64,000 nt of DNA from Shimia gijangensis (lineage in GTDB: Bacteria; Pseudomonadota; Alphaproteobacteria; Rhodobacterales; Rhodobacteraceae). The translations under genes were made by a program, and so were the position numbers. How positions within the stretch are numbered: the first letter of the stretch is position 1; each line of letters starts with the position of its first letter. Below the pieces are notes generated by a model. That model made no database searches. It saw nothing but the letters and a program-made list of their open reading frames with translations, and was not told the DNA's origin. Positions 1,848 to 43,295 of the stretch are shown piece after piece. The stretch is taken from contig NZ_FQZQ01000019.1 in assembly GCF_900142085.1 (NCBI RefSeq), forward strand, positions 1 to 64,000, read 5' to 3'.

Positions 1848-3902
1848 TTATCCGCGGCGGCGTCTGCGACGACGTCCACCACCTTCGCCATCCGTGTCGC
1901 CACCGCCTGTGTTAAAGTTCACATCTGGCAGCGTCACGATCTTGGATAATTCCGGGAACGGGTCCGTCGCATGTGGGATAGCGCTGGCATTGATGAAATG
2001 CTCTTGAAACCTTGGCTCAATGGCGGTTTCGACTTTGGTGATCTCGCCAACTGTGGTCTCAATCTCGCGACGAGAGCCGACATTGCACAGCGCGATCCGC
2101 GCGCCTGTTCCGGCGGCGTTGCCCGCAGACGTGACCTTGTCCAGCGGTGCGTCCGGGATCATACCCAGCACCATAGCGTGTTTGTTCGAGATATGGGCAC
2201 CAAAGGCGCCAGCCAGCACAACTCGATCCACGGTTTCGACGTTCATTTCATCCATCAAAAGGCGGGCCCCGGCGTAAAGCGCGGATTTGGCCAGTTGAAT
2301 GGCGCGAATGTCGCCTTGGGTGACAGAAATCAGGGGCCCACCATCTGCGCGTGCGTCGTGGATCACATAGGCGTGGGTCCGTCCCTCGGGGATGCAGCGC
2401 TCGGTGCCAGTTTTTTCGGCCGAGCCTATCAGCCCGCTGGGGTCAAGCAAACCCGCCATGCGCATTTCGGCGACGGCCTCAATAATGCCAGATCCGCAGA
2501 TGCCTGAAATGCCCGTGGTGGCGATGACATGTTCAAAACCGTCCTCATCGGACCACGTATCTGATCCAATCACCCGGAATCGGGGCTCTTTGGTGACCGG
2601 GTCAATTTCTATTCGCTCAATGGCCCCGGGGGCGGCCCGTTGGCCACTGCTGATTTGGGCACCTTCAAATGCAGGCCCCGTGGGGGAGGAACACGCCAGT
2701 ACACGCTCTTTGTTGCCCAGCAGGATTTCGGCATTGGTGCCGACGTCCACAACCAGCACAAGGTCTTCGGATTTGCCCGGTTCTTCGGCCAACGCTACCG
2801 CTGCGGCATCTGCACCGACGTGACCTGCAATACACGGCAGGATGTAGACTTGGGCGTTTTCATTCATCACGTTGAGATCAAGATCCCGCGCATTCATCGC
2901 CAGCGACTCTGACGTGGTCAGCGCAAAAGGCGCCTGACCCAATTCCACCGGATCAATGCCCAACAACAAGTGGTGCATGACCGGGTTACACACGAATACG
3001 GTTTCCAGAATTTGGAAAGGGCGAATGCCAGCCTCGGTTGAGATGGCCTCGGTCAGACCGTTGATGGCGGTGCGCACGGCGGTGGTCATTTCTTTGTCGC
3101 CACCGGGGTTCATCATCGCATAGCTGACCCGGCTCATCAGGTCTTCGCCAAAGCGAATTTGCGGATTCATCACCCCGGACGAGGCTTTAACCTCGCCGTT
3201 GCGCAAGTCGCAAAGATGTGCTGCGATGGTGGTTGAGCCAAGATCAATCGCCAGACCATAGATGCGGTCTTCGGTCAGGCCCGGCCAGATTTCCACAACC
3301 TTGTGGCAGGTATCCTTGTGGGACTTGTGCAAAGCCACGGTGACCTGCCATTGACCCTTGCGCAAAACGGGCTGTAGGCGGGTCAGGACAGTCAAGTCGG
3401 CCGTAATGTGCTCAATGCCCCATTGATCCTGTAACGCACGTTCCAGCCGCTCCAGATCGCCAGTAGGCTCGTGCATATCGGGTTCCTGGACCTCGACAAA
3501 GTATAGATGCGTGGCCGGGTCCATAACGATGTTGCGTGATGAGGCGGCTTTGCGCACAACTTGCCTGTGCACCTGAGATTCTGGTGGAACATCAATTACG
3601 ACGTCACCTTGCACAGCCGCCTGACAGCCCAGCCGACGCCCGTCGATCAGCCCGCGTTTGTCCTGATAGCGTTGTTCGACAGAATTCCATTCGCTGAGCG
3701 CGTCTTGGGCCACGGTGACGCCGTGCTTGGAGAATTCTCCATACGACGGTGTGATCTGGCATTTGGAGCAAATACCGCGACCACCACAGACCGAGTCCAA
3801 ATCCACTCCCAGCTGACGGGCGGCTGTCAAAATGGGGGTTCCGACCGGAAAGTGTCCGCGTTTGCCCGAAGGGGTAAAGATCACGAGGGGATCGCTGCTC
3901 AT
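1848..3902 (-). CDS. RACo-like corrinoid-protein activator (2Fe-2S plus ASKHA/DUF4445)
   Basis: This 684-residue protein starts with a plant-type 2Fe-2S ferredoxin domain (about residues 5-95) with a cysteine cluster in CGGRGICSKC and a later GCQA. A linker follows, then a large ASKHA-fold ATPase-like domain: AIDLGSTTIAAHLCD, VVDVGTNAEI, and CGSGIIEAVAEM near the end. This is the architecture of RACo-type proteins, which use ATP and a low-potential cluster to reduce Co(II) cobalamin on corrinoid methyl carriers back to Co(I). No corrinoid protein or methyltransferase is adjacent; the MttB-family gene at 39 kb is the only candidate client in the window. The C-terminus ends in an unusual Gly/Arg-rich tail with eight consecutive arginines. 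Confidence 0.85.
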   Translation of the reverse strand: MSSDPLVIFTPSGKRGHFPVGTPILTAARQLGVDLDSVCGGRGICSKCQITPSYGEFSKHGVTVAQDALSEWNSVEQRYQDKRGLIDGRRLGCQAAVQGDVVIDVPPESQVHRQVVRKAASSRNIVMDPATHLYFVEVQEPDMHEPTGDLERLERALQDQWGIEHITADLTVLTRLQPVLRKGQWQVTVALHKSHKDTCHKVVEIWPGLTEDRIYGLAIDLGSTTIAAHLCDLRNGEVKASSGVMNPQIRFGEDLMSRVSYAMMNPGGDKEMTTAVRTAINGLTEAISTEAGIRPFQILETVFVCNPVMHHLLLGIDPVELGQAPFALTTSESLAMNARDLDLNVMNENAQVYILPCIAGHVGADAAAVALAEEPGKSEDLVLVVDVGTNAEILLGNKERVLACSSPTGPAFEGAQISSGQRAAPGAIERIEIDPVTKEPRFRVIGSDTWSDEDGFEHVIATTGISGICGSGIIEAVAEMRMAGLLDPSGLIGSAEKTGTERCIPEGRTHAYVIHDARADGGPLISVTQGDIRAIQLAKSALYAGARLLMDEMNVETVDRVVLAGAFGAHISNKHAMVLGMIPDAPLDKVTSAGNAAGTGARIALCNVGSRREIETTVGEITKVETAIEPRFQEHFINASAIPHATDPFPELSKIVTLPDVNFNTGGGDTDGEGGGRRRRRRRG

Positions 3903-15104: not shown

Positions 15105-16175
15105 TTAGATCAGATAAAACTTCACTGCCCAAAACAGGAAGCCCGCGTGAATTGCCGGATAAATCCACACCACAAGGTACCTGTCTATTTTGCGCGCCAA
15201 AGCTTCACGATCATTGATTTTGAGGCGTCGCAAAGCGATGTTCACCAAAACCATTGAGCCCGTAATGACAAACATGCCGACCAACAGGGAATCAATAAAG
15301 GTCAGATAACCCAGTTTTGGCAGAGTTGTTGAAATAGCAAAGTTAAACGCCACAAAAACCAATAGATTGGCCGAGGCCATATCAATTCTGCGGCGGTATT
15401 CCTGAAGGAAAAAGGTGGCCCAGCTAACCATCAAAATGATCATCAAAGGAAGCATGAGGCGAAGGACATAAAACACTATGTGTCGGCGTCCTTCAAACCG
15501 AAGCGCGATTTGCGATGTTTCGAGCCCAGTAAAGCCAGTGACAAATTTGGTTTCCATCTGGGCGCCATAAAGAACCCATTCTTCTTCGCCCAATAAGCCG
15601 CCCAATCCGGATTGATCTTCCAGAGGGAAAAACTCGACAAAGTTACGTGGGAAAAGTGAGGAAATTTCTACGTAAAATGTTTGTTTATCAAATGGGTATC
15701 TGCGAAAATTAAAGTGAGGGGCCTGCAGCGTTGCAGAGAACCTCTCTACATAGGCAGCATTTCCGTCACTTTGCAACATGACGATGGCTTGCTGGACAAA
15801 CCGGCGACCTTGTTGGTTTTGCAGAAGGAACGCGGGCAGGGTAATTCCCTGTTCTGTAGCCAGTTCTACAAATTCATCGGGCCGGTATCTGCGGTAGTCC
15901 TGTGTGCTGTCATCATCGGCAAACGCAAGTCTCGGCAAGTTAAGTTGCATCACCAATGTGCCAACGACTCCAAAGTTTTCCTCTTGCTGGTTTACACCGG
16001 TGATTTGATTGATTTGGATGCCCACACCAACCTGCAAAGGCCCTTCCGAGGGGGGCGGAAGTCTGGAAAGCTGCGCCATATCAAAGCCGTCGGCGCGCGA
16101 CTGCTGTGTCATTGCCCCAAAGGCAAAAGTTGCCACTGCGATTACGAGTACAATAGTTGTAAAAAGTCTATTCAT
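15105..16175 (-). CDS. Prokaryotic pentameric ligand-gated ion channel (Cys-loop-receptor family)
   Basis: The protein has 356 residues. A signal peptide (about 1-28) leads to a beta-rich extracellular ligand-binding domain with the family signature YPFDKQTFYVEI. Four hydrophobic segments follow: M1 HIVFYVLRLMLPLMIILMVSW, M2 ASANLLVFVAFNFAISTTLP, M3 TFIDSLLVGMFVITGSMVLV and M4 YLVVWIYPAIHAGFLFWAV. No cysteine occurs anywhere, so the eukaryotic Cys-loop disulfide is absent, as in GLIC and ELIC. The M3-M4 loop is short. The ligand and ion selectivity cannot be read from the sequence. It lies downstream of typA but behind a strong terminator, so it is likely a separate unit. Confidence 0.85.
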   Translation of the reverse strand: MNRLFTTIVLVIAVATFAFGAMTQQSRADGFDMAQLSRLPPPSEGPLQVGVGIQINQITGVNQQEENFGVVGTLVMQLNLPRLAFADDDSTQDYRRYRPDEFVELATEQGITLPAFLLQNQQGRRFVQQAIVMLQSDGNAAYVERFSATLQAPHFNFRRYPFDKQTFYVEISSLFPRNFVEFFPLEDQSGLGGLLGEEEWVLYGAQMETKFVTGFTGLETSQIALRFEGRRHIVFYVLRLMLPLMIILMVSWATFFLQEYRRRIDMASANLLVFVAFNFAISTTLPKLGYLTFIDSLLVGMFVITGSMVLVNIALRRLKINDREALARKIDRYLVVWIYPAIHAGFLFWAVKFYLI

Positions 16176-33043: not shown

Positions 33044-34351
33044 TCACAAATTTTGGAACGCTCGGTCCAGCGCTTCGGCGGTCTGGTCCACATCATCCAT
33101 CGACAGGCATAGAGGCGGTACCATACGCAAGACAGATTGGTCCGCTCCCGACTTGGACAAGATCAACCCTTGCTCGCGACACGCCTCAAAAACGCTGGTG
33201 GTTGCGTCGCGATCCGGGGTTTTAGAGGCGCGGTCGCTGACGATCTCAATCGCAAGCATCAGGCCCTTGCCACGCACATCCCCGATCTTTTCGTGACGGG
33301 TTTGCAAGTCTTTCAGGCGTTCCAGAAGCGCTCCGCCAACACGTGCAGCATTCTTTTGCAGGGTTTCTTCTTTCATCACTGCTAAAACGGCTCGCGCCGC
33401 GGCCGCCGAGGTCGGATTGGCACCGTAGGTGTGGAACATGAATTTTTCCGCCATAGGAGCGGCAACATGCTTGCGCGCAACCACGGCGCCAATGGGAAAT
33501 CCATTGCCCAAACCTTTGGCCATGACCACGATGTCAGGCACCACGCCGTCAGCTTCAAAGCCCCAGAAATTCGCACCTGTCCGACCAAAACCAGACTGCA
33601 CTTCGTCGGCGATATATAGACCGCCTGCTGCCCGGACACGCTCGGCCGCACCGGACATATATCCGGTTGGCATTTCGATGATACCGCCATAACCCTGTAC
33701 GCTTTCCACGAAAATGCCTGCGACATTGCCAGAGGTGGCCGAGGCGATGGTGCGATCAATTTCATCAAGGTAAGGCTGGGTGCCGGGGCCAAAAATACCC
33801 CGGTACTGGTTGGGTTCGGGAACAAAGGCGACATTGCCGGGCATGCCCGGGTGACGCCAACCTGAGATCCCTGTGATAGACTGGGCCGCAGCGGTTGGAC
33901 CATGATAGGCCGTCCGCAAGGCCAGCAGATCAAGGTTGCCAGTGAAGGTTCTCGCCATGGTCATCGCCAAATCAACGGCTTCGGACCCAGAGTTTGTCAG
34001 ATGCACCACCCATTCGTGGCCCTTGGGCATCGTCGCGGCCAGTTCTTCAGCCAAATGCGCAGGGGTAGGGTGGTAGAACATGGTGGTACAATGGGTAAGC
34101 TCTTGCGCCTGCTCCATGGCCGCCGCCACCACCTTTGGGTGAGAGTGGCCAACCGAAATACAAACGTTCATCCCCAGAAGGTCGGTATATTTGCGGCCTT
34201 CGGTGTCCCACAGATATTGCCCTTGTCCTTTACGGAACACGATTGGGTCGCGAAACGGCGTAAAGCGGGTCAGCGATGAGGCATAATACTTGTCCCGGCG
34301 TGCGGCAGTTTTGTTCAGGTCCCATTCGTTGATGGGGAGTTGATCTGTCAT
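33044..34351 (-). CDS. Class III aminotransferase (AGXT2-like)
   Basis: This 435-residue PLP enzyme has HLTNSGSEAVDLAM, RTAYHGPTAAAQSITG, the cofactor Asp in IADEVQSGFGRTG and the Schiff-base Lys in VVMAKGLGNGFPIGAV. It is closest in pattern to alanine-glyoxylate aminotransferase 2 and beta-alanine/omega-amino-acid transaminases. It would remove the amino group from a primary amine. It is the last gene of the methyltransferase-demethylase operon and overlaps the upstream gene by ATGA, which suggests it acts on the fully demethylated product. Confidence 0.88.
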   Translation of the reverse strand: MTDQLPINEWDLNKTAARRDKYYASSLTRFTPFRDPIVFRKGQGQYLWDTEGRKYTDLLGMNVCISVGHSHPKVVAAAMEQAQELTHCTTMFYHPTPAHLAEELAATMPKGHEWVVHLTNSGSEAVDLAMTMARTFTGNLDLLALRTAYHGPTAAAQSITGISGWRHPGMPGNVAFVPEPNQYRGIFGPGTQPYLDEIDRTIASATSGNVAGIFVESVQGYGGIIEMPTGYMSGAAERVRAAGGLYIADEVQSGFGRTGANFWGFEADGVVPDIVVMAKGLGNGFPIGAVVARKHVAAPMAEKFMFHTYGANPTSAAAARAVLAVMKEETLQKNAARVGGALLERLKDLQTRHEKIGDVRGKGLMLAIEIVSDRASKTPDRDATTSVFEACREQGLILSKSGADQSVLRMVPPLCLSMDDVDQTAEALDRAFQNL

Positions 34352-36762
34352 GAAAGTGCTCCTTTGGCGCGCAAACGGGTATTGTTTGGATCAAATGGTG
34401 GTTGGCTTAGTATTTGGGCTGGCCGCTTTTGACCAAGAACGGATACGTGAAGCCCGTCGCGTGCGGTTGCATCGCGTAAATAGGCAAGCGCCAGAACTTT
34501 GCCGGTGCGGTGGCCATAAGCGCCAGATGTTACAATGCCAACACAGCGGCCGCCTTGCCACAAACCGTGGGCGTAAAACGGATCAACGTCACCGCCTTCA
34601 AGCTCCATCAACACCATATCCCAGTCATTGGCACGCGTCTCTAGGGCTTCACGCCCGACAAAGTCGCGTTCTTTGGGTTTCACGAAGCCGCCCAGACCAG
34701 ATTCAATTGGCGAGCGTTCTGTGGTCAGATCGCTGCCCCATCCACGATACCCTTTTTCAAGGCGCATCGAGTTGGCGGCATACGCCCCGTAGTATCCAAG
34801 GCCCAAAGGTTTTGCCGTGTTTTCGAGCAGAGTAAACAGCTTTGCTGCATCAGCGGCCGGAACGTGCAGCTCCCAACCGGCCTCGCCAATGTAAGACACC
34901 CGCATGGCGCGTACTTTGATGCCGTTGATATCCACAGATTTCACTGTCAGCCAGGGAAAGTCTTGGGGTGCGATATCAGTCAGTGAAGCCCAAACTTCCG
35001 GGGCTTTTGGCCCCATCAATCCAATCACAGCGATCTGATCAGTGACCCTATCGACAGTGACGTCAAAGGCCGTGGCATGCGCGGTCAGAACGTCCAGATC
35101 GATTTCCTCAGCTGCCGCCGCAGAGGTGAGATAGCCGTGGTCCTCTCCCAAACGGGCAATGGCGAATTCGGACAGAACACCACCGGCGGGGGTCAGAACC
35201 TGGTTCAGCCCGATCCGACCCGTTGCAGGTGCGGTGTTGGCGCCCATCGTACCAAGGAATTTGGCTGTATCCGGACCCGAAATTTCGAACTTCGAAAACA
35301 CAGACAGGTCTGCCATGGCCACGCGTGTGGTGGCGGCCTCAACTTCAGCGGCGACTTTCGGGAACCAGTTTGCGCGGCGGAAGGTTTCATCGGCGATTTC
35401 GTCCGACGAATCCGAGAACCAGTTCGGGCGCTCCCAGCCATAGGCGGCTCCCATGATCGCGCCACGTTCGATCATCAGATCATGCAGCGGCGACAGGCGT
35501 TTGCCACGTCCTGCCGGGCGCTCTTCGTTGGGGTAATGTACGCCAAATTGCAGGCCAAAACACTCGATGGCCTTTTCAACGCGGTAGTCCCTGTCAGCCC
35601 ATGAGCCAAACCGACGGCTGTCGACAGCCAGGGGATCCATCGGCGGTGCGCCATGGGTCATCCAATGGGCCAGGAACCAACCGGCTCCGCCACCCTCCAT
35701 CACACCCATGGACGAACCGGTCAACAACCATGCGTTTTCAAGCCCATGTGCCGGGCCGATCAACGGGTTTGCGTCAGGTGTGAACGTGATCGGTCCATTG
35801 ATGACCGATTTCACGCCACCGGTTTCCAACGCCGGGATACGCTCCATCGCGGCCATAATGATCGGCTCAACCCGGTCCAGATCAGGTGGCATCAAATCCG
35901 CACCAAATTCGGGCGGAACCCCATCGACAGACCACACCTGCGCATCTTTTTCGTATGGCCCGAGGATGAGGCCATCGCGTTCCTGACGCACATACCAGCT
36001 TTCCTCGGGATCGCGGATCATGGGCAACTCATCCAGACCTGCGGCCTGCCTGTCTGCGACGGCCTGTACGGTGTCTGTCACCAGATACTGGTGTAGAACA
36101 GGTACGGATGGGATGTTGAGACCCATCATGTGGCCAATTTCCCAGCCCCAAGTTCCGGCAGCGTTCACAATGTGCTGCGCGTGCACGACGCCTTTGGCCG
36201 TGTCGACCACCCATTCGTCACCGTCTTTTCGGATTTCCGTGACCGGGCATTGCCGCCAGATTTCGGCGCCTCCGCGTCGGGCCACATCGGCCATCGCGTT
36301 GGTTGCAAGACTGGGATCCACATGGCCGTCATCAGGTTCATATATTCCGCCAAGCAACCCATCAAGCTGAGTTAACGGGTGCAATTCTGCAATGCGTTCT
36401 GGCGTCAGAACCTCGAGTGGGTATCCGGTGAATTCTGACAGGCCCGCTACATGGCGAAACTCGTCCATCCGATCGGGATTGCGTGTGATACGCATAGCGC
36501 CTGACGCATGAAACCCGCAGCTCAGGCCTGTTTCCTTAGGCAACGTATCACGATAGAGACGGACAGAGGTTGCCCGCAGTTCCTGAATGGTTGGGTTATG
36601 AGCAAAATGCGTGCACAGCCCCGCGGCGTGCCAGGTCGATCCATGTGTGAGATCGTTTTTCTCTACCAGCAACACATCTTTCCAGCCCTCTTTGACCAGA
36701 TGGTACATGAGCGATACACCCATCACCCCACCACCAATGATCAGAACTTGCGCTTTTTTCAT
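34348..36762 (-). CDS. FAD-dependent dimethylglycine/sarcosine-dehydrogenase-like protein A
   Basis: This 804-residue two-part enzyme begins with a DAO-type FAD domain (GGGVMGVSLMYHL dinucleotide motif, then STWHAAGLCTHF with the His used for covalent flavin in DMGDH/SARDH). A GcvT-like folate-binding region and C-terminal GcvT barrel follow (GEAGWELHVPAADA, RLEKGYRGWGSDLTTERSPIE). Such enzymes oxidatively remove N-methyl groups and pass formaldehyde to tetrahydrofolate. It is fused by ATGA overlaps to protein B upstream and the aminotransferase downstream. The exact N-methyl substrate is not readable. Confidence 0.88.
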   Translation of the reverse strand: MKKAQVLIIGGGVMGVSLMYHLVKEGWKDVLLVEKNDLTHGSTWHAAGLCTHFAHNPTIQELRATSVRLYRDTLPKETGLSCGFHASGAMRITRNPDRMDEFRHVAGLSEFTGYPLEVLTPERIAELHPLTQLDGLLGGIYEPDDGHVDPSLATNAMADVARRGGAEIWRQCPVTEIRKDGDEWVVDTAKGVVHAQHIVNAAGTWGWEIGHMMGLNIPSVPVLHQYLVTDTVQAVADRQAAGLDELPMIRDPEESWYVRQERDGLILGPYEKDAQVWSVDGVPPEFGADLMPPDLDRVEPIIMAAMERIPALETGGVKSVINGPITFTPDANPLIGPAHGLENAWLLTGSSMGVMEGGGAGWFLAHWMTHGAPPMDPLAVDSRRFGSWADRDYRVEKAIECFGLQFGVHYPNEERPAGRGKRLSPLHDLMIERGAIMGAAYGWERPNWFSDSSDEIADETFRRANWFPKVAAEVEAATTRVAMADLSVFSKFEISGPDTAKFLGTMGANTAPATGRIGLNQVLTPAGGVLSEFAIARLGEDHGYLTSAAAAEEIDLDVLTAHATAFDVTVDRVTDQIAVIGLMGPKAPEVWASLTDIAPQDFPWLTVKSVDINGIKVRAMRVSYIGEAGWELHVPAADAAKLFTLLENTAKPLGLGYYGAYAANSMRLEKGYRGWGSDLTTERSPIESGLGGFVKPKERDFVGREALETRANDWDMVLMELEGGDVDPFYAHGLWQGGRCVGIVTSGAYGHRTGKVLALAYLRDATARDGLHVSVLGQKRPAQILSQPPFDPNNTRLRAKGALS

Positions 36763-39146
36763 GTGCGCATCCTTTCGCCTTTAGGATCAAACGGCGGGCG
36801 GCGCAGCGGTTTCGCCGCGTAATCCTGCCCGGCAACGCGCACGGTGAACTGGCGCGCAAACAAAGTATCCAGAGTGTCGCCAGGGCTCACAGAAATCAGC
36901 CCAAATGCGAGGTTCAGCCCAGTGCGCGCGCCAACAGCACCACTTGTGGTTAACCCGATATGATCTGTGCCCTCGTAGATTGGTTCGTCGTGCAGCATCA
37001 GGGCATTCCCGTCTACCTCCAACAAAACCATCCTACGTTGAAGGCCATCGCTGCGTTGCTGTTCAAGAACAGATTTGCCCAGAAACGCCTTGGTCCAGTC
37101 AATGGTAAACCCAAGTCCCGCTTCCAGTGGCGTGATCTCAGGTCCGAGATCATGTCCCCAGTGTTTAAAGCCCTTTTCAATGCGGCACCCATCCAGCGCA
37201 TAGTGCCCAAGCGGCTCGCCGCCTGCGGCCACAAGTGCTTCAAAAACAGGGGCCGCCTGAGACGCCTCAACGGTCACCTCCCAACCCAGTTCCCCAACAA
37301 AGCTGACCCGCGTGATACGACATGACACTCCGGCAAGGGTGATATCTGTTGCATAGCCAAAAGGCACATCGGTCCAAGAAGGTGTCAAGCCTTTCAGCAT
37401 TGTGCGGCTGCCCGCGCCCATTACGCCGATCGTGCAATAATCTTCGGTGCGATCCAGAATTTCCACATCACCTGTAAGATGACGGCGCAGGTAAGCCAGA
37501 TCGCGCATCCGCGTGGCAGCCCCCGAGGTCAGATGAAAATCCGTTTGTGAAAGGCGGGTGATGGTGACGTCCATCTCGATCCCGCCATTCTCGTTGAGAA
37601 CCTGTGTATAGACCGCACGACCCACAGCCACATCCATCTGAGCAGTGGTTAGCCAGTTGAGGGCTTCCAAGGCGCCCGCACCAAAAACATCCAGTTTGGC
37701 GAATGGTGACAAATCGATCAATACGGTTCCTGTCGCCATCACCGCAGCTTCGCGCTTGGCAATAGGCAACCATGGTTGCGGGCCAACGGCATAGGGTAGG
37801 TTGCTCTCGGATGGATTGACCGCATACCACAGGCCGCGTTCCCAACCGGCTGTCAGGCCAAAGACTGCGCCCTTTGCGGCCCAATGGTCATGCAGCGCTG
37901 ACTGGCGAAGATTACGCCCCGCCTTGGGTTGTTTGTAGGGCCAGTGCATTGCAAACAGATCCGAAACAGTTTCCTGCATCCTTTCAGCCATATGAGCAGA
38001 GCCAGCGGTGCGTGGGTCAGCGCGTGCAATATCGACTTCCCACATATCCATCGGGGGAACACGGTCCAAAACCCAATCCGCCAAGGCCCGGCCAATCCCT
38101 GCAGAGGACATCACGCCGACCGAGTTCATGCCCGCCGCCACAAACAATCCGTCAACCTGTGGCGTCTCACCGACAAGGGGCCTGGTATCCGCGGTAAAGC
38201 TCTCGGGGCCATTCATGAAGTGTTGAATACCGGCGATCTCAAGAGCTGGAATCAAATCAAGTGCGGCCTCCATAAAAGGCGCAAACTGATCCCAGTCCTC
38301 TGGCAACTCCAGAAACGGGCGATCCCCTTCGGGACCAAAAGCGTTCCAACATTTTGCATCCGGTTCAAAGCCACCGATCACAAGTTTGCCGGCATCGCCT
38401 TTGATATAGATACCCCGATCCAGATCACGGATCACCGGAAACGGCTCTGGCAAATTCGCCATTGGCTCGGTGACCACATACATGTGTTCAACAGCCTGTA
38501 AGGGCAGGGCCACACCTGCGGTCTCAGCAAGCGCCTTGCTCCATGCCCCGGCACAAAGGATCACAATGTCGGCTGCAATTTCTGTCCCATCAGCCAATTG
38601 AACGCCGCAGGCTTGACCGTCTTGTGTCAGAAGCGACGAGACTTGCACATTTTCGTGGATTTCCACGCCGCCTGACCGCGCGCCGCGTGCATATGCCATG
38701 CACAGGTCGACCGGATTGACGTTGCCATCTTCGGGCACATAAAGCGCGCCAACATGGTCTGACAAGTCCAACCCGGGCACGTGGACATCCTTCGTAGACA
38801 CAACTTGAGGCGTCAGGCCCTGCGTCAAGCCCAGGTCGGCAATCCGGTGCAGCTCGTCCAGACGTTCGGTTTCTCGGGCCAGCCAATAGCCGCCTGTTTT
38901 TTTGTACCCCGTCGAAAGGCCGGTTTCCTGCTCAAGTTGGGGAAAAAGTTTCAGCGCATGCGACGCAAGCCTGGTCATATTGGGGGTTGCCCGCAATGGA
39001 CCAACGATCCCGGCGGCATGCCACGACGTACCTGACGTCAGTTGATTGCGTTCAAGCAGCACAACATTTGACGCGCCGCGCTGTGCCAGATGGTAGGCGA
39101 CACTTAGGCCGATCACACCGCCGCCAATAATGATTGTTTTGCTCAT
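36759..39146 (-). CDS. FAD-dependent dimethylglycine/sarcosine-dehydrogenase-like protein B
   Basis: This 795-residue paralogue of the neighbouring protein A has the same domain order. The FAD motif is IIGGGVIGLSVAYHLAQRG, and SGTSWHAAGIVGPL gives the covalent-flavin His. The GcvT part contains GELGWEVTVEASQA and RIEKGFKHWGHDLGPEITPLE. Sequence divergence from protein A is large, so the two likely act on different methylation states rather than being a recent duplication. It starts 91 bp downstream of the methyltransferase gene on the same strand; no gene fits in that gap. Confidence 0.88.
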   Translation of the reverse strand: MSKTIIIGGGVIGLSVAYHLAQRGASNVVLLERNQLTSGTSWHAAGIVGPLRATPNMTRLASHALKLFPQLEQETGLSTGYKKTGGYWLARETERLDELHRIADLGLTQGLTPQVVSTKDVHVPGLDLSDHVGALYVPEDGNVNPVDLCMAYARGARSGGVEIHENVQVSSLLTQDGQACGVQLADGTEIAADIVILCAGAWSKALAETAGVALPLQAVEHMYVVTEPMANLPEPFPVIRDLDRGIYIKGDAGKLVIGGFEPDAKCWNAFGPEGDRPFLELPEDWDQFAPFMEAALDLIPALEIAGIQHFMNGPESFTADTRPLVGETPQVDGLFVAAGMNSVGVMSSAGIGRALADWVLDRVPPMDMWEVDIARADPRTAGSAHMAERMQETVSDLFAMHWPYKQPKAGRNLRQSALHDHWAAKGAVFGLTAGWERGLWYAVNPSESNLPYAVGPQPWLPIAKREAAVMATGTVLIDLSPFAKLDVFGAGALEALNWLTTAQMDVAVGRAVYTQVLNENGGIEMDVTITRLSQTDFHLTSGAATRMRDLAYLRRHLTGDVEILDRTEDYCTIGVMGAGSRTMLKGLTPSWTDVPFGYATDITLAGVSCRITRVSFVGELGWEVTVEASQAAPVFEALVAAGGEPLGHYALDGCRIEKGFKHWGHDLGPEITPLEAGLGFTIDWTKAFLGKSVLEQQRSDGLQRRMVLLEVDGNALMLHDEPIYEGTDHIGLTTSGAVGARTGLNLAFGLISVSPGDTLDTLFARQFTVRVAGQDYAAKPLRRPPFDPKGERMRT

Positions 39147-39237
39147 CTGAATTGTCCCGCTACGAAGCCGGGCTGCGGCTTTGAGACAACAGAGCTGCCC
39201 GCAATCCCGTCTGCCAATCTGTGCGTGAAGCGGCCCA

Positions 39238-40770
39238 TCAGAAGTAATCCATATCTGGCGTTTCGGACTTGCGTTGTGCCATATAGTCCTTCAGTTCAGC
39301 ATCTATTGACGGATCCAGACCCGGGTCATTGTACCCTTCCAACGTTTCTTTCCAAATTCGATTGGCACGCGTGGTGGTGTCCTGAGAGCCTGCCGCCTGC
39401 CATTGCTCAAACGCCGAGTCGTCAGGTGTCAGCGGGCGGAACAGGGCTGACATAAAGTTGGATTGAGTGTGTTCTGACCCCAGAAAATGCTGGCCCGGTC
39501 CGGTGGCGGCGATCGCGGCCATGGCTTGTGCGTTTTCGCTCAGATCAATGCCGTCAAAGAAACGTCCGACTTTGCCACACAGATCATGATCCATGATCGT
39601 TTTCTCAAACGATGTGACAAGCCCACCTTCGAGCCAACCTGTGGCATGGTTGATCACGTTTGCCCCGGCAAACATTGACATCAACAACCCCCATGCGGCC
39701 TCTTGCTGGCTTTGGGCATCTGCGATTTTTGACGAGGACAGTGTGCCAACCGTATGGAGCGGTACGCCGAGGCGCCGGGCCAGCTGTCCGGCCGCGAGCA
39801 CCAAAAGCCCTGCTTCGGGCGTTCCAAAGGTTGGTGCGCCGGTTTTCATGGACATTGTCGACGCAAAACTGCCCATCAGGCAGGGCGCGCCGGGGGACGC
39901 GAGCTGCACCAGCGTCAACGTTGCCAAGGCTTCAGCCAGCACTTGGGCCAGTGTTCCGGCAACCGTGGTTGGCGACATTGCTCCTGTGAGAACCCAAGGC
40001 GAACAAGCCACGGGCTGGCCCGCTCTTGCGTAGGTTTTGAGGGCGCCAGACATATGTGAGTCCATCACCAAAGGCGCGTTGGTGTTTGAGACACAGTAAA
40101 GCACCGCGTTTTCAGCCATGAAATCCGCGCCAAATACGATTTTCGCCATATCGAGCGCATGTCCGGCGCGCTCTGCTCCGATAAAGGCCCCCATGAAGGC
40201 CCGATCTGAGTGGCGGATGTGGGAATACAGCATGTCCAGATGCCGCTTGTTGGCGGGCAGGTCGACCGGCTCACAGACGACCCCACCGGAATGATGCAAC
40301 CAGGGCAACGAATGGTGAAGTTTAACCAGCGTCTCAAAGTCACCATGGGTCGCATAGCGTCGACCTTTGTCCAGATCATGCACAAATGGCGGCCCCCAGG
40401 ACGGGCACAAAACAGTGGCGTCGCCTCCCATTTGTACGTTGTTCGCCGGATTGCGGGCATGTTGCACAAACTGAGCAGGCGCAGTGACCTGAATGGTCTT
40501 GCGACAAAAGCCGGGTACAAATCGGACGCGCGTTCCCTGGACGTCACAACCCGCTTGCCGAAATAGCTCGAGACATTCTGGATCGTCGTGAAACTCCATG
40601 CCTGTTTCGGCCAGAATTTGATCTGCGTTCGCTTCGATCAGGCTTAAACCTTCTTCGTTCAGCACATTAAAGGTGCCAAGCTTACGCTGAATAAACGGTG
40701 CACGAGGGGGTGCACTGGGTGCGGTTTGTGTTCGGCCGCTGCGGCGGCGATTTTTACGACTTCGTTCCAT
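39238..40770 (-). CDS. MttB-superfamily (trimethylamine/betaine) corrinoid methyltransferase, non-pyrrolysine type
   Basis: This 510-residue protein has the MttB family layout: Arg-rich start, NEEGLSLIEANADQILAETGMEF, VCEPVDLPANKRHLDMLYSHIRHSDR, GAFIGAERAGHALDMAKIVFG and the C-terminal ANRIWKETLEGYNDPGLDPSIDAEL. The frame is continuous with no in-frame TAG, so it is not a pyrrolysine enzyme. Non-Pyl members such as MtgB demethylate quaternary amines (betaines) onto a corrinoid carrier. I chose the ATG at 40770 (AAGG eight bases upstream) over a TTG at 40815. It is the first gene of the minus-strand operon. No corrinoid carrier gene is adjacent. Confidence 0.88.
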   Translation of the reverse strand: MERSRKNRRRSGRTQTAPSAPPRAPFIQRKLGTFNVLNEEGLSLIEANADQILAETGMEFHDDPECLELFRQAGCDVQGTRVRFVPGFCRKTIQVTAPAQFVQHARNPANNVQMGGDATVLCPSWGPPFVHDLDKGRRYATHGDFETLVKLHHSLPWLHHSGGVVCEPVDLPANKRHLDMLYSHIRHSDRAFMGAFIGAERAGHALDMAKIVFGADFMAENAVLYCVSNTNAPLVMDSHMSGALKTYARAGQPVACSPWVLTGAMSPTTVAGTLAQVLAEALATLTLVQLASPGAPCLMGSFASTMSMKTGAPTFGTPEAGLLVLAAGQLARRLGVPLHTVGTLSSSKIADAQSQQEAAWGLLMSMFAGANVINHATGWLEGGLVTSFEKTIMDHDLCGKVGRFFDGIDLSENAQAMAAIAATGPGQHFLGSEHTQSNFMSALFRPLTPDDSAFEQWQAAGSQDTTTRANRIWKETLEGYNDPGLDPSIDAELKDYMAQRKSETPDMDYF

Positions 40771-40817
40771 ACTGTGAACCTTGCAACTGACTTGACATTT
40801 GCCAATCAAAATCAATT

Positions 40818-40838: not shown

Positions 40839-40850
40839 CTTAGGTTGCCT

Positions 40851-41828
40851 ATGCCGAATTCGCGTCCACCTCACAGCCGTCCGTTGACACCGCGTCTAAT
40901 CCGTTCACTGGAAGTTCTTGTGGCGGTTGCGGAAACAGGCCAGATGCGTATGGGGGCCAAGCTGCTTGGGCTTTCTCAACCCGCCGCGTCTCAGCACATT
41001 GCGAATTTGGAAAAAGAGTTTGGCACGCGGCTTGTTGACCGCAGTACGCGACCGGCCCGGCTGACACACGCCGGGCTTAGGCTGCACAATCGCGCGCAAA
41101 AGATCCTGAACGCTTTGTCCGATATGGAATCTGAAATGCGCCACATTGGGCAGGCATCGATCAATGTGTTGCGTGTCGGCATTCAGGCTTCAATTGCGAC
41201 CACGATCACGCCGTCGCTGATCGCATTGGCACAAGAGCAATTTGGCGTTGAAGATATTATCCTGCATGCTGGACAAAGCGGCGACCACGAACATCTTCTC
41301 AGGACAAAGCAAGCTGATCTGGCAATTACGTCAAACCCGTTTTTGGATATGGACGGTCTTGAACGTCATCACATTATGAAAGAAGCGTATCTGCTTGTTT
41401 TACCACCTGATTACGCGGGGCCTACTGATAGCTTAGAGGCCGTTCAGGAGTATTTACCGCTGATCCGTTTTGGGGATACCACAAATGCCGGACGTCAGAT
41501 TGCCCAGCATCTGCGACGATTGAGGTTTGAGCCCAAAAAGGTCATTCAGGCCGATCGATCCAGCATGGTCACATCCAGCGTTGCCGCCGGGCAGGGATTT
41601 AGCTTGTTGACGCCGACATTGCTGATTGATGGCATGGTGGAAGACATGCGGATGAGCTTGCGCGTCCTGCCCGTGACAGGGTTGTCACGCACATTGACGG
41701 TAGTCGCACGAAAAGGAGAACTGCGTGAATTGCCTGCAAAGATCGCAGAGCTGACAACCAGGGAACTCACGCGCAAGATCGAAGAGTTTGTTGGGGGGAT
41801 TGGTTTGGAGGCAGTGACGCTCGGGTAG
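40851..41828 (+). CDS. LysR-family transcriptional regulator
   Basis: This 325-residue regulator has an N-terminal winged helix (residues 12-72) with MRMGAKLLGLSQPAASQHIANLEKEFGTRLVDR and a C-terminal periplasmic-binding-like effector domain (about 95-300). It starts at the ATG at 40851, two codons after a possible TTG. Divergent from the methyltransferase operon with a T-N11-A dyad between, it is the obvious controller of that operon. The effector is probably a methylated amine or downstream amino acid, by inference from context. Confidence 0.9.
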   Translation: MPNSRPPHSRPLTPRLIRSLEVLVAVAETGQMRMGAKLLGLSQPAASQHIANLEKEFGTRLVDRSTRPARLTHAGLRLHNRAQKILNALSDMESEMRHIGQASINVLRVGIQASIATTITPSLIALAQEQFGVEDIILHAGQSGDHEHLLRTKQADLAITSNPFLDMDGLERHHIMKEAYLLVLPPDYAGPTDSLEAVQEYLPLIRFGDTTNAGRQIAQHLRRLRFEPKKVIQADRSSMVTSSVAAGQGFSLLTPTLLIDGMVEDMRMSLRVLPVTGLSRTLTVVARKGELRELPAKIAELTTRELTRKIEEFVGGIGLEAVTLG

Positions 41829-41951: not shown

Positions 41952-43295
41952 ATGACCGTGACGTTTGACCAGTTTGCAGCCAATCTGACCTACACCGATA
42001 TTCCACAAGATGTGCTGGCCATTTTACGGCGTAGCTTTACCGATACGATGGGAGTTGCGGCTGTTGGCAGTACCACTTCGATGTCCGGCCTGGCACGCAA
42101 AGCGGCATTGGCAGTGTTTGGCACCGGAACAGCAGGCAGTTCGCGCATGTTAATGGATGGCCGTTCAGTGAGCCCGGCGGGCGCGGCGATGGCGGGGGCC
42201 TTTCTGGTCGATAGTATTGATGCACACGACGGGGTAACTCCGTGTCAGGGGCACGCAGGCTCAGCCGTTTTTCCCGCGCTGATCGCGATGGCACAGTCGC
42301 GGGGCAAACCGATGTCCGGCGCTGAGTTTGCCACATATTTGGCCGTTGCCTATGAAGTTTGCTACCGCGCAGGGGAAACCCAACACGCCACTTGTGAGGA
42401 TTATCATACCTCGGGTGCATGGACTTCCGTTGGCATTGCGACCTCCGGGGCACGCATGTTGAATTGTGACCCCGAGGCCATTCGCCATGCTGCAGGAATT
42501 GGCGAGTATCATGGGCCACGCAGTCAAATGATGCGTTGCATTGATTTCCCCACCAATGTTCGGGACGGTGTTGGCTGGGGCGCGCCTTCGGGAGTGACGG
42601 CAGCCTATCTCGCATCCGAAGGCTTTACCGGTGCGCCGGCGCTGACTTGTGAAGGGGCCGGGTCGGAAACCTTTTGGCAGGATTTGGGTCAGGGGTGGCG
42701 GATCACTGATTACACCCACTACAAAGCCTATCCTTGTTGCCGGTGGTCCCATGCAGCGATCGATTCCGTATCCTATCTGATTGCGGAACATGGCTTGACC
42801 CATGATATGATCAAGAGCGTTGAGATACGCACCTTCCACTATGCGACCCGTCTCGCGGGTCAGGAACCCGCCAACCTCGATGAGTTTACTTATGCGATTG
42901 CGTTTCCAGTGGCGGCAATGATTGTGCGGGGTCAGGTTGGTGTGGCCGAACTGACGCCGGAGGCGTTGAGGGATCCGGATATTCTACGGATAAGTCGGGC
43001 GACCAAACTGATTGACGATGACCATTTCACCGAAATCAGCCGCCACAAACGGTGGGCTCAGGTGACCTTGGTTCTGAAAGGTGGTCGGCGTATTGAGGAT
43101 ATCCCCCGCACGCCGCGAGGGGATGCAGATTTGCCGTTAAGTGACGCTGAAATCTCTTCGAAGTTTCATTTGCTGGCTGATCCGGTGCTGGGGTCAAGCC
43201 GAGCCAATGAAATTGAACAACTATCAGGTCAGTTTGACAAACTATCCGCGACTGACTTGCAGCGGCTGTTCACGCTTTGCACGGATGCGACATAA
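41952..43295 (+). CDS. MmgE/PrpD family protein
   Basis: This 447-residue protein is recognised from VDSIDAHDGVTPCQGHAGSAVFPAL, the CRWSHAAIDSV region and the C-terminal domain with ISRHKRWAQVTLVLKGG. Family members include 2-methylcitrate dehydratase PrpD and cis-aconitate decarboxylase, but most are uncharacterised, and no prpB or prpC is present. AAGGA precedes the ATG. It is 123 bp downstream of the LysR gene on the same strand and ends at a shared terminator. Confidence 0.85.
   Translation: MTVTFDQFAANLTYTDIPQDVLAILRRSFTDTMGVAAVGSTTSMSGLARKAALAVFGTGTAGSSRMLMDGRSVSPAGAAMAGAFLVDSIDAHDGVTPCQGHAGSAVFPALIAMAQSRGKPMSGAEFATYLAVAYEVCYRAGETQHATCEDYHTSGAWTSVGIATSGARMLNCDPEAIRHAAGIGEYHGPRSQMMRCIDFPTNVRDGVGWGAPSGVTAAYLASEGFTGAPALTCEGAGSETFWQDLGQGWRITDYTHYKAYPCCRWSHAAIDSVSYLIAEHGLTHDMIKSVEIRTFHYATRLAGQEPANLDEFTYAIAFPVAAMIVRGQVGVAELTPEALRDPDILRISRATKLIDDDHFTEISRHKRWAQVTLVLKGGRRIEDIPRTPRGDADLPLSDAEISSKFHLLADPVLGSSRANEIEQLSGQFDKLSATDLQRLFTLCTDAT

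Follow-up and report, generated by a model that had tools for sequence, protein, structure and literature searches.

Aerobic demethylation of glycine betaine by the MtgBCD system of the marine bacterium Ruegeria pomeroyi was reported in 2025; the sections of that report used here mention up to seven pfam06253 genes and suggest other methylated compounds as substrates (PMC12478193). The pocket proposed for glycine betaine in MtgB, derived from docking, consists of Y94, N199, R309, and H345 (PMC6855144), and the flavoenzyme dimethylglycine dehydrogenase (DMGDH) has a His225/Tyr259 dyad (PMC5082570). Here we describe a four-gene operon in the first 64,000 nucleotides (nt) of contig NZ_FQZQ01000019.1 of Shimia gijangensis (assembly GCF_900142085.1; Rhodobacteraceae), a stretch called the window below. 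The operon encodes an MttB-family methyltransferase (MttB), two DMGDH-type proteins with flavin adenine dinucleotide (FAD) and GcvT parts (DA and DB), and a class III aminotransferase (AT); with a probability of about 0.68, it serves the breakdown of one quaternary-ammonium (betaine-type) compound other than glycine betaine.

All four open reading frames (ORFs) lie on the minus strand between 33044 and 40815 (Table 1). Pfam assigns PF06253 to MttB (649 bits, 499/500 positions), DAO, FAO_M, GCV_T, and GCV_T_C to DA and DB alike, and PF00202 to AT (300 bits). MttB and DA are separated by 91 nt, literal ATGA overlaps occur at the DA/DB and DB/AT junctions, and WHAAG is present in both flavoproteins. 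The MttB gene is a single uninterrupted frame of 525 codons that lacks any in-frame amber codon, and its full-length PF06253 match places it in the non-pyrrolysine MttB superfamily. An earlier note on the window had proposed an operon of these four genes, ATGA overlaps among the last three, WHAAG flavin motifs, and a non-pyrrolysine MttB; ORFs and Pfam agree with it on gene content and position, and the overlaps, motifs, and amber-free frame were found as described. The LysR gene that diverges from the operon is absent from that note.

Table 1. Features of the window discussed in the text.
Feature	Coordinates	Strand	Remarks
MttB-family (PF06253) methyltransferase	39238..40770 from ATG; 40815 from upstream TTG	-	Predicted first demethylation, quaternary to tertiary amine
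DA (FAD-GcvT protein A), DMGDH-type	36759..39146	-	Flavin-His43, His221/Tyr247 dyad, Asp526 at folate-site position
DB (FAD-GcvT protein B), DMGDH-type	34348..36762	-	Flavin-His45, His224/Tyr257 dyad, Glu532 at folate-site position
AT, class III aminotransferase	33044..34351	-	Lys279 at presumed PLP-lysine position, transaminase-type Arg409; predicted last step, deamination
LysR-type regulator	40845..41828	+	Divergent from MttB and the operon; Pfam
MmgE/PrpD gene	41952-43295		Neighbour of the LysR gene; Pfam
RACo-type corrinoid activation protein	1848..3902	-	Single match in the genome; putative functional link

The strongest evidence that the four genes serve one common pathway is that their linkage is kept despite changes in gene order. 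Named genomes were scanned with AT and the best 80 of 191 relatives were retained, a set that, being chosen by AT, leans to close relatives and includes several congeners; eight extra loci (L018-L025) overlap the 80 and are excluded from the counts. Mapping by tblastn found the complete set at 70/80 loci: 42 in the window order (MttB, DA, DB, AT), 27 with DA-DB divergent from LysR-MttB-AT, and one in a third layout. Seven of the ten remaining loci are truncated by contig ends, L029 lacks MttB and has DA as a fragment, and L102 and L103 carry AT alone; a LysR match is present at 62 of the 80. Roseovarius nubinhibens ISM (L034) is among the carriers of the set. The four genes also occur, at 53-72% identity, on a Mesorhizobium plasmid beside an annotated betaine ATP-binding cassette (ABC) transporter, and among three deeper AT relatives examined (L146, L147, and L148; 48-59% identity), L147 keeps LysR, MttB (66%), AT, and DA (54%) before its contig ends. 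Across 149 genomes of the same family, this one included, AT occurs in 9 (E<=1e-120) and DA in 7 (E<=1e-250), AT lying within a few kilobases of DA in all seven; the two AT-bearing genomes without such a DA are L018, where the contig ends inside the DA match, and L023, where AT stands alone. The set is patchily distributed in the sequences compared, since AT was found in 4 of 385 genomes of the class (this one included) and not in the single same-genus genome listed. The gene-neighbourhood comparison called for by the earlier note thus found the genes together, not apart, in relatives, and its proposal of one joint pathway gains from their linkage in several gene orders. Because this linkage survives rearrangement, gene order per se does not encode step order; the further suggestion that the one mirrors the other holds in one of the three layouts and fails in the other two.

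The closest solved proteins to MttB are 4yyc (570 bits; from S. meliloti), 2qne (363 bits), and 9yce (361 bits). A FastTree phylogeny that also includes the remaining MttB-family proteins of the genome puts the layout A and layout B operon copies, about 50% identical to each other, in adjacent clades (support 0.93) within the MtgB-type group. At the MtgB pocket positions the window MttB has Trp140, Asn244, His354, and His390 (numbered from the TTG at 40815); operon MttB proteins keep the Asn and the last His and replace Tyr and Arg, the pocket being W-N-H-H (group A) or F-N-H-H (group B). The Y94 position is Trp in 42/42 covered group A rows and Phe in 29/29 covered group B rows, and the Arg309 position is His in all 71 covered operon rows (72 rows, one gapped). 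Arg occupies this position in all eight other MtgB-type paralogs of the genome, in 4YYC, and in 2QNE; the C48 copy, which pairs with 4yyc at 61% identity, has Y/N/R/H as in MtgB. We read the Arg-to-His change as a changed substrate, though the pocket itself is defined by docking. A peptide-pattern search found no viral MttB copies.

Rat and human DMGDH match DB along its entire length (641 bits; 40% identity to the rat enzyme) and DA more distantly (356 bits). The flavin-His, the dyad, and, at the Asp552 position, an acidic residue that we take to act at the folate site are kept in both proteins in every ungapped row, the acid being Asp in DA and, as in rat DMGDH, Glu in DB. Residue counts exclude rows with a stop in translation (over the 88 loci including the eight extra ones, one row for AT, eight for DB, one for LysR); on this basis His/His/Tyr/Asp is found in 72/74 DA rows (the other two gapped), His/His/Tyr in 65/69 DB rows (four gapped), and Glu in 67/69 (two gapped). 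Both proteins thus hold the catalytic residues of the DMGDH type that had been assigned to them. Phylogenetically, DA and DB each belong to an operon-specific clade of their own, with DA sister to one member of an FAD-GcvT pair elsewhere in the genome (C36) whose genes lie on either side of a homocysteine S-methyltransferase (PF02574) gene; DA and DB are 33% identical to each other, so they are not products of a recent duplication.

The best solved match of AT is human ethanolamine-phosphate phospho-lyase (ETNPPL; 280 bits), followed by a racemase and the phospho-lyase 5g4i. AT has the PF00202 fold and, in 79/79 rows, Lys279 and Arg409, which presumably correspond to the lysine that binds pyridoxal 5'-phosphate (PLP) and to Arg398 of gamma-aminobutyrate (GABA) aminotransferase. 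At the position of Arg409, the phospho-lyases 6tor and 5g4i carry Lys, so that Lys serves as a phospho-lyase mark on the strength of two solved proteins. We treat AT as a probable transaminase because Arg409 replaces this Lys, in keeping with the class III enzyme of transaminase type proposed earlier.

The partners that a corrinoid-dependent MttB would need are encoded in the same genome, as the earlier assignment of a betaine-type MttB step implies. The genome has 16 PF06253 and 12 FAO_M matches and a single B12-binding_2 corrinoid protein (PF02310 and PF02607; nearest NCBIfam model MtgC-type, below cut-off), near which lie a DUF1638 gene and a gene above the NCBIfam betaine-homocysteine methyltransferase cut-off. 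Two pterin-binding proteins were found, on C29 and C35. The MtgD-like protein at C35:53758 scores above the cut-off of NF005719 (methyltetrahydrofolate:corrinoid methyltransferase domain); the C29 protein was rejected as MtgD, its neighbours pointing to FolP, and a MetF-like label for the ORF directly upstream of the MtgD-like gene (L120:2293-3246) was dropped for want of a Pfam or NCBIfam match. A reductive activator, the RACo protein, lies in the window itself; it does not reach the cut-off of AcsV or RamA, the NCBIfam models nearest to it. A corrinoid protein, a methyltetrahydrofolate methyltransferase, and an activator are thus all present, and these three proteins would serve the operon MttB. 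Sixteen MttB-family proteins accordingly stand beside one corrinoid protein and one RACo in this genome (window on contig C27). Other MttB genes of the genome adjoin a different class III aminotransferase gene (L133:5508-8640) or FAD-GcvT genes (L123:7927-11916 and L126:6113-10232), suggesting further substrate-specific modules; another (C29, L122:6904-14871) has, no more than 7 kb away, an APH-family kinase gene and the gene of a class III enzyme with Lys at the phospho-lyase position.

In the pathway proposed from these families and residues, the first methyl group would move by way of MttB onto Co(I) of the only MtgC-like corrinoid protein in the genome and from there, through the MtgD-like protein, to tetrahydrofolate; the RACo protein of the window would reactivate oxidised cobalamin. 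DA and DB would then oxidise the two remaining N-methyl groups with covalent FAD, their GcvT domains capturing both one-carbon (C1) units on tetrahydrofolate, and the primary amine left at the end would be converted by AT, through transamination, to an oxo-acid or a semialdehyde. Control of the operon probably falls to the LysR protein. The substrate is probably not glycine betaine, because the docked pocket has His for Arg, DA and DB form operon-specific clades, and the genome has a separate 61% relative of 4YYC; the earlier preference for another substrate is strengthened by the same three points. Stepwise demethylation followed by deamination, the core of that proposal, agrees with the families, the catalytic positions, and the linkage, and its beta-alanine betaine is kept as a first guess for the substrate, though a doubtful one. 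In its pathway logic the operon is likely a real, conserved variant of corrinoid- and folate-linked betaine breakdown. More tentatively, and somewhat short of an even chance, it would provide a complete oxygenase-free aerobic route for a betaine (beta-alanine betaine, for instance) that is not glycine betaine, in which one cobalamin-dependent and two flavin- and folate-dependent demethylations send all C1 units to tetrahydrofolate before transamination, and which plugs into a hub where many MttB-type enzymes with different substrates share one corrinoid protein and one activator. Among the matches listed in open-licence full-text literature, none described the four-gene set by title or start of abstract; subscription papers lay outside this scope.

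Genes near the related sets provide further context. At 13/80 loci, OpuAC-type binding proteins are encoded no more than 5 kb from the set (a first kind at 11, a second at 5, of which 2 are new), and a permease at L099 scores above the NCBIfam choline-permease cut-off; these betaine-type transporter genes, present at some related loci, fit a betaine substrate for the set. A short-chain dehydrogenase/reductase (SDR) gene occurs at 13/80 loci, two of them weak matches, its best NCBIfam models being 3-hydroxybutyrate dehydrogenases, below cut-off. Four loci (L045, L047, L048, and L049) have an APH-family kinase gene some 1.2-1.5 kb past AT. No aldehyde dehydrogenase was recognised by eye among the listed neighbour clusters, not all of which were Pfam-scanned. 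Judged from these annotations, no neighbour gene names the substrate. In the window, AT is followed downstream by a tRNA-Arg gene and a SufS-family gene, consensus scans for promoters and terminators gave no excess of matches over shuffles, and the MmgE/PrpD gene had a match at 0/88 loci.

Three other pathways would draw on the same protein families. A second glycine betaine route, with MttB as MtgB, DA and DB as DMGDH and sarcosine dehydrogenase, and AT acting on glycine/glyoxylate, would explain why DB is nearest mammalian DMGDH among solved proteins, why MttB falls inside the MtgB-type group, and why the transporters encoded close to related sets are of the glycine betaine/choline ABC group. 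It is nevertheless unlikely: the Arg309 position is His in every covered operon copy, the genome also has the 4YYC relative with MtgB residues and another FAD-GcvT pair around the PF02574 gene, and reaching glycine needs no fourth enzyme. Breakdown of carnitine or gamma-butyrobetaine, AT acting on GABA or 3-hydroxy-GABA, is about equally improbable. It accords with the SDR near 11/80 loci (plus the two weak matches), which resembles 3-hydroxybutyrate dehydrogenase below cut-off, but AT has HGPT where GABA aminotransferase has HGRT, presumably with the Arg that binds the carboxylate, and no carnitine gene was recognised by eye among the listed neighbour clusters. Eubacterium has MttB relatives for both compounds, MtyB (gamma-butyrobetaine) and MtcB (carnitine), according to the portions of the source used (PMC8604678), but in R. 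pomeroyi CdhABC is described as converting carnitine to glycine betaine (PMC12478193).

Least probable, at a few chances in a hundred, is breakdown of choline or phosphocholine, with AT as a phospho-lyase splitting phosphoethanolamine. ETNPPL being the closest solved protein to AT made this role a candidate, an MttB relative, MthB, is described as demethylating phosphocholine (PMC12155760), and the APH-family kinase genes past AT at 4/80 loci still count for it; it is disfavoured by Arg in place of the Lys of the two solved phospho-lyases, by a two-query kinase search that was negative at the other 76 loci, and by the separate Lys-type enzyme that the genome has beside an APH kinase and another MttB. 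For homarine, a further compound considered, a link to Mgd has been reported in a 2026 paper. Several observations also weigh against a dedicated module for a betaine distinct from glycine betaine. AT may be used outside the set, because it stands without partners at L102 and L103 (none of the other three within 10 kb on each side; 2/80 loci) and at L146, and mostly so at L148, which lacks MttB and has just a weak 30% FAD-protein match 5 kb off. MttB matches occur in 78/149 family genomes (E<=1e-150), and although the six at >=77% identity all have AT, MttB alone is not diagnostic of the set, because relatives at about 45-51% identity are widespread. The seven more distant MttB-family paralogs of the genome have Ser, Gly, Thr, or Leu at the Arg309 position, so that loss of the Arg alone does not identify a substrate, and the pocket residues themselves come from docking (PMC6855144). 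Beside the operon, the window has no recognisable transporter or downstream oxo-acid enzyme, and Sulfotransfer_5 (PF19798) relatives at 32/80 loci (for example L041:11351-12118 and L095:4391-5167), at 29 of which they are no more than 61 bases from a set gene, are unexplained; at 8 of the 32 they lie antisense between MttB and DA. A betaine-type compound other than glycine betaine remains the favoured substrate. On this reading, one extra pfam06253 gene gains a full set of partner enzymes, a searchable pocket signature, and a short substrate list, and a question of marine methylated-nitrogen cycling becomes directly testable.

Some further observations were made in passing. This genome has a 31% Sulfotransfer_5 relative (L141:10955-11695) about 3 kb from another FAD-GcvT gene, and an enolase-superfamily gene near an FAD-GcvT gene (C46, L141:1645-8032) whose nearest NCBIfam model, below cut-off, is cis-3-hydroxy-L-proline dehydratase; we take this locus to recall (hydroxy)proline betaine clusters. 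On the Mesorhizobium plasmid (L149:1881-7217) an annotated amidohydrolase and small Rieske protein accompany the betaine ABC transporter beside the set, and neither had a match at E<=1e-12 in the searched loci. Elsewhere in the window, the minus strand encodes a neurotransmitter-gated ion channel ligand-binding domain (15105-16175; PF02931, 33.5 bits) and a Tle1-like phospholipase catalytic domain (419-1780; PF09994, 208 bits).

Among described systems, MtgBCD of R. pomeroyi shares with this genome the MttB family, a corrinoid protein with DUF1638 and homocysteine-methyltransferase genes nearby, an MtgD-like protein, and RACo; the operon MttB differs in having its own two FAD-GcvT proteins and aminotransferase and a W/F-N-H-H rather than Y-N-R-H pocket, and this genome has 16 pfam06253 genes, compared with the up to seven mentioned in the sections cited (PMC12478193). 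Rat and human DMGDH and Arthrobacter dimethylglycine oxidase resemble DA and DB in domain order, flavin-His, His/Tyr dyad, and the acid at the Asp552 position, whereas DA and DB fall in separate operon-specific clades. AT shares the PF00202 fold family and the PLP-lysine position with class III omega-aminotransferases and with phospho-lyases of the ETNPPL/5g4i type, but has the transaminase-type Arg where the two solved phospho-lyases have Lys. The MtcB, MtyB, MtpB, and MthB enzymes of Eubacterium limosum likewise devote one MttB-type enzyme to each quaternary amine and feed a corrinoid protein; E. limosum, however, is an anaerobe, and FAD-GcvT or aminotransferase genes are unmentioned in the portions of those reports considered here (PMC8604678, PMC12155760).

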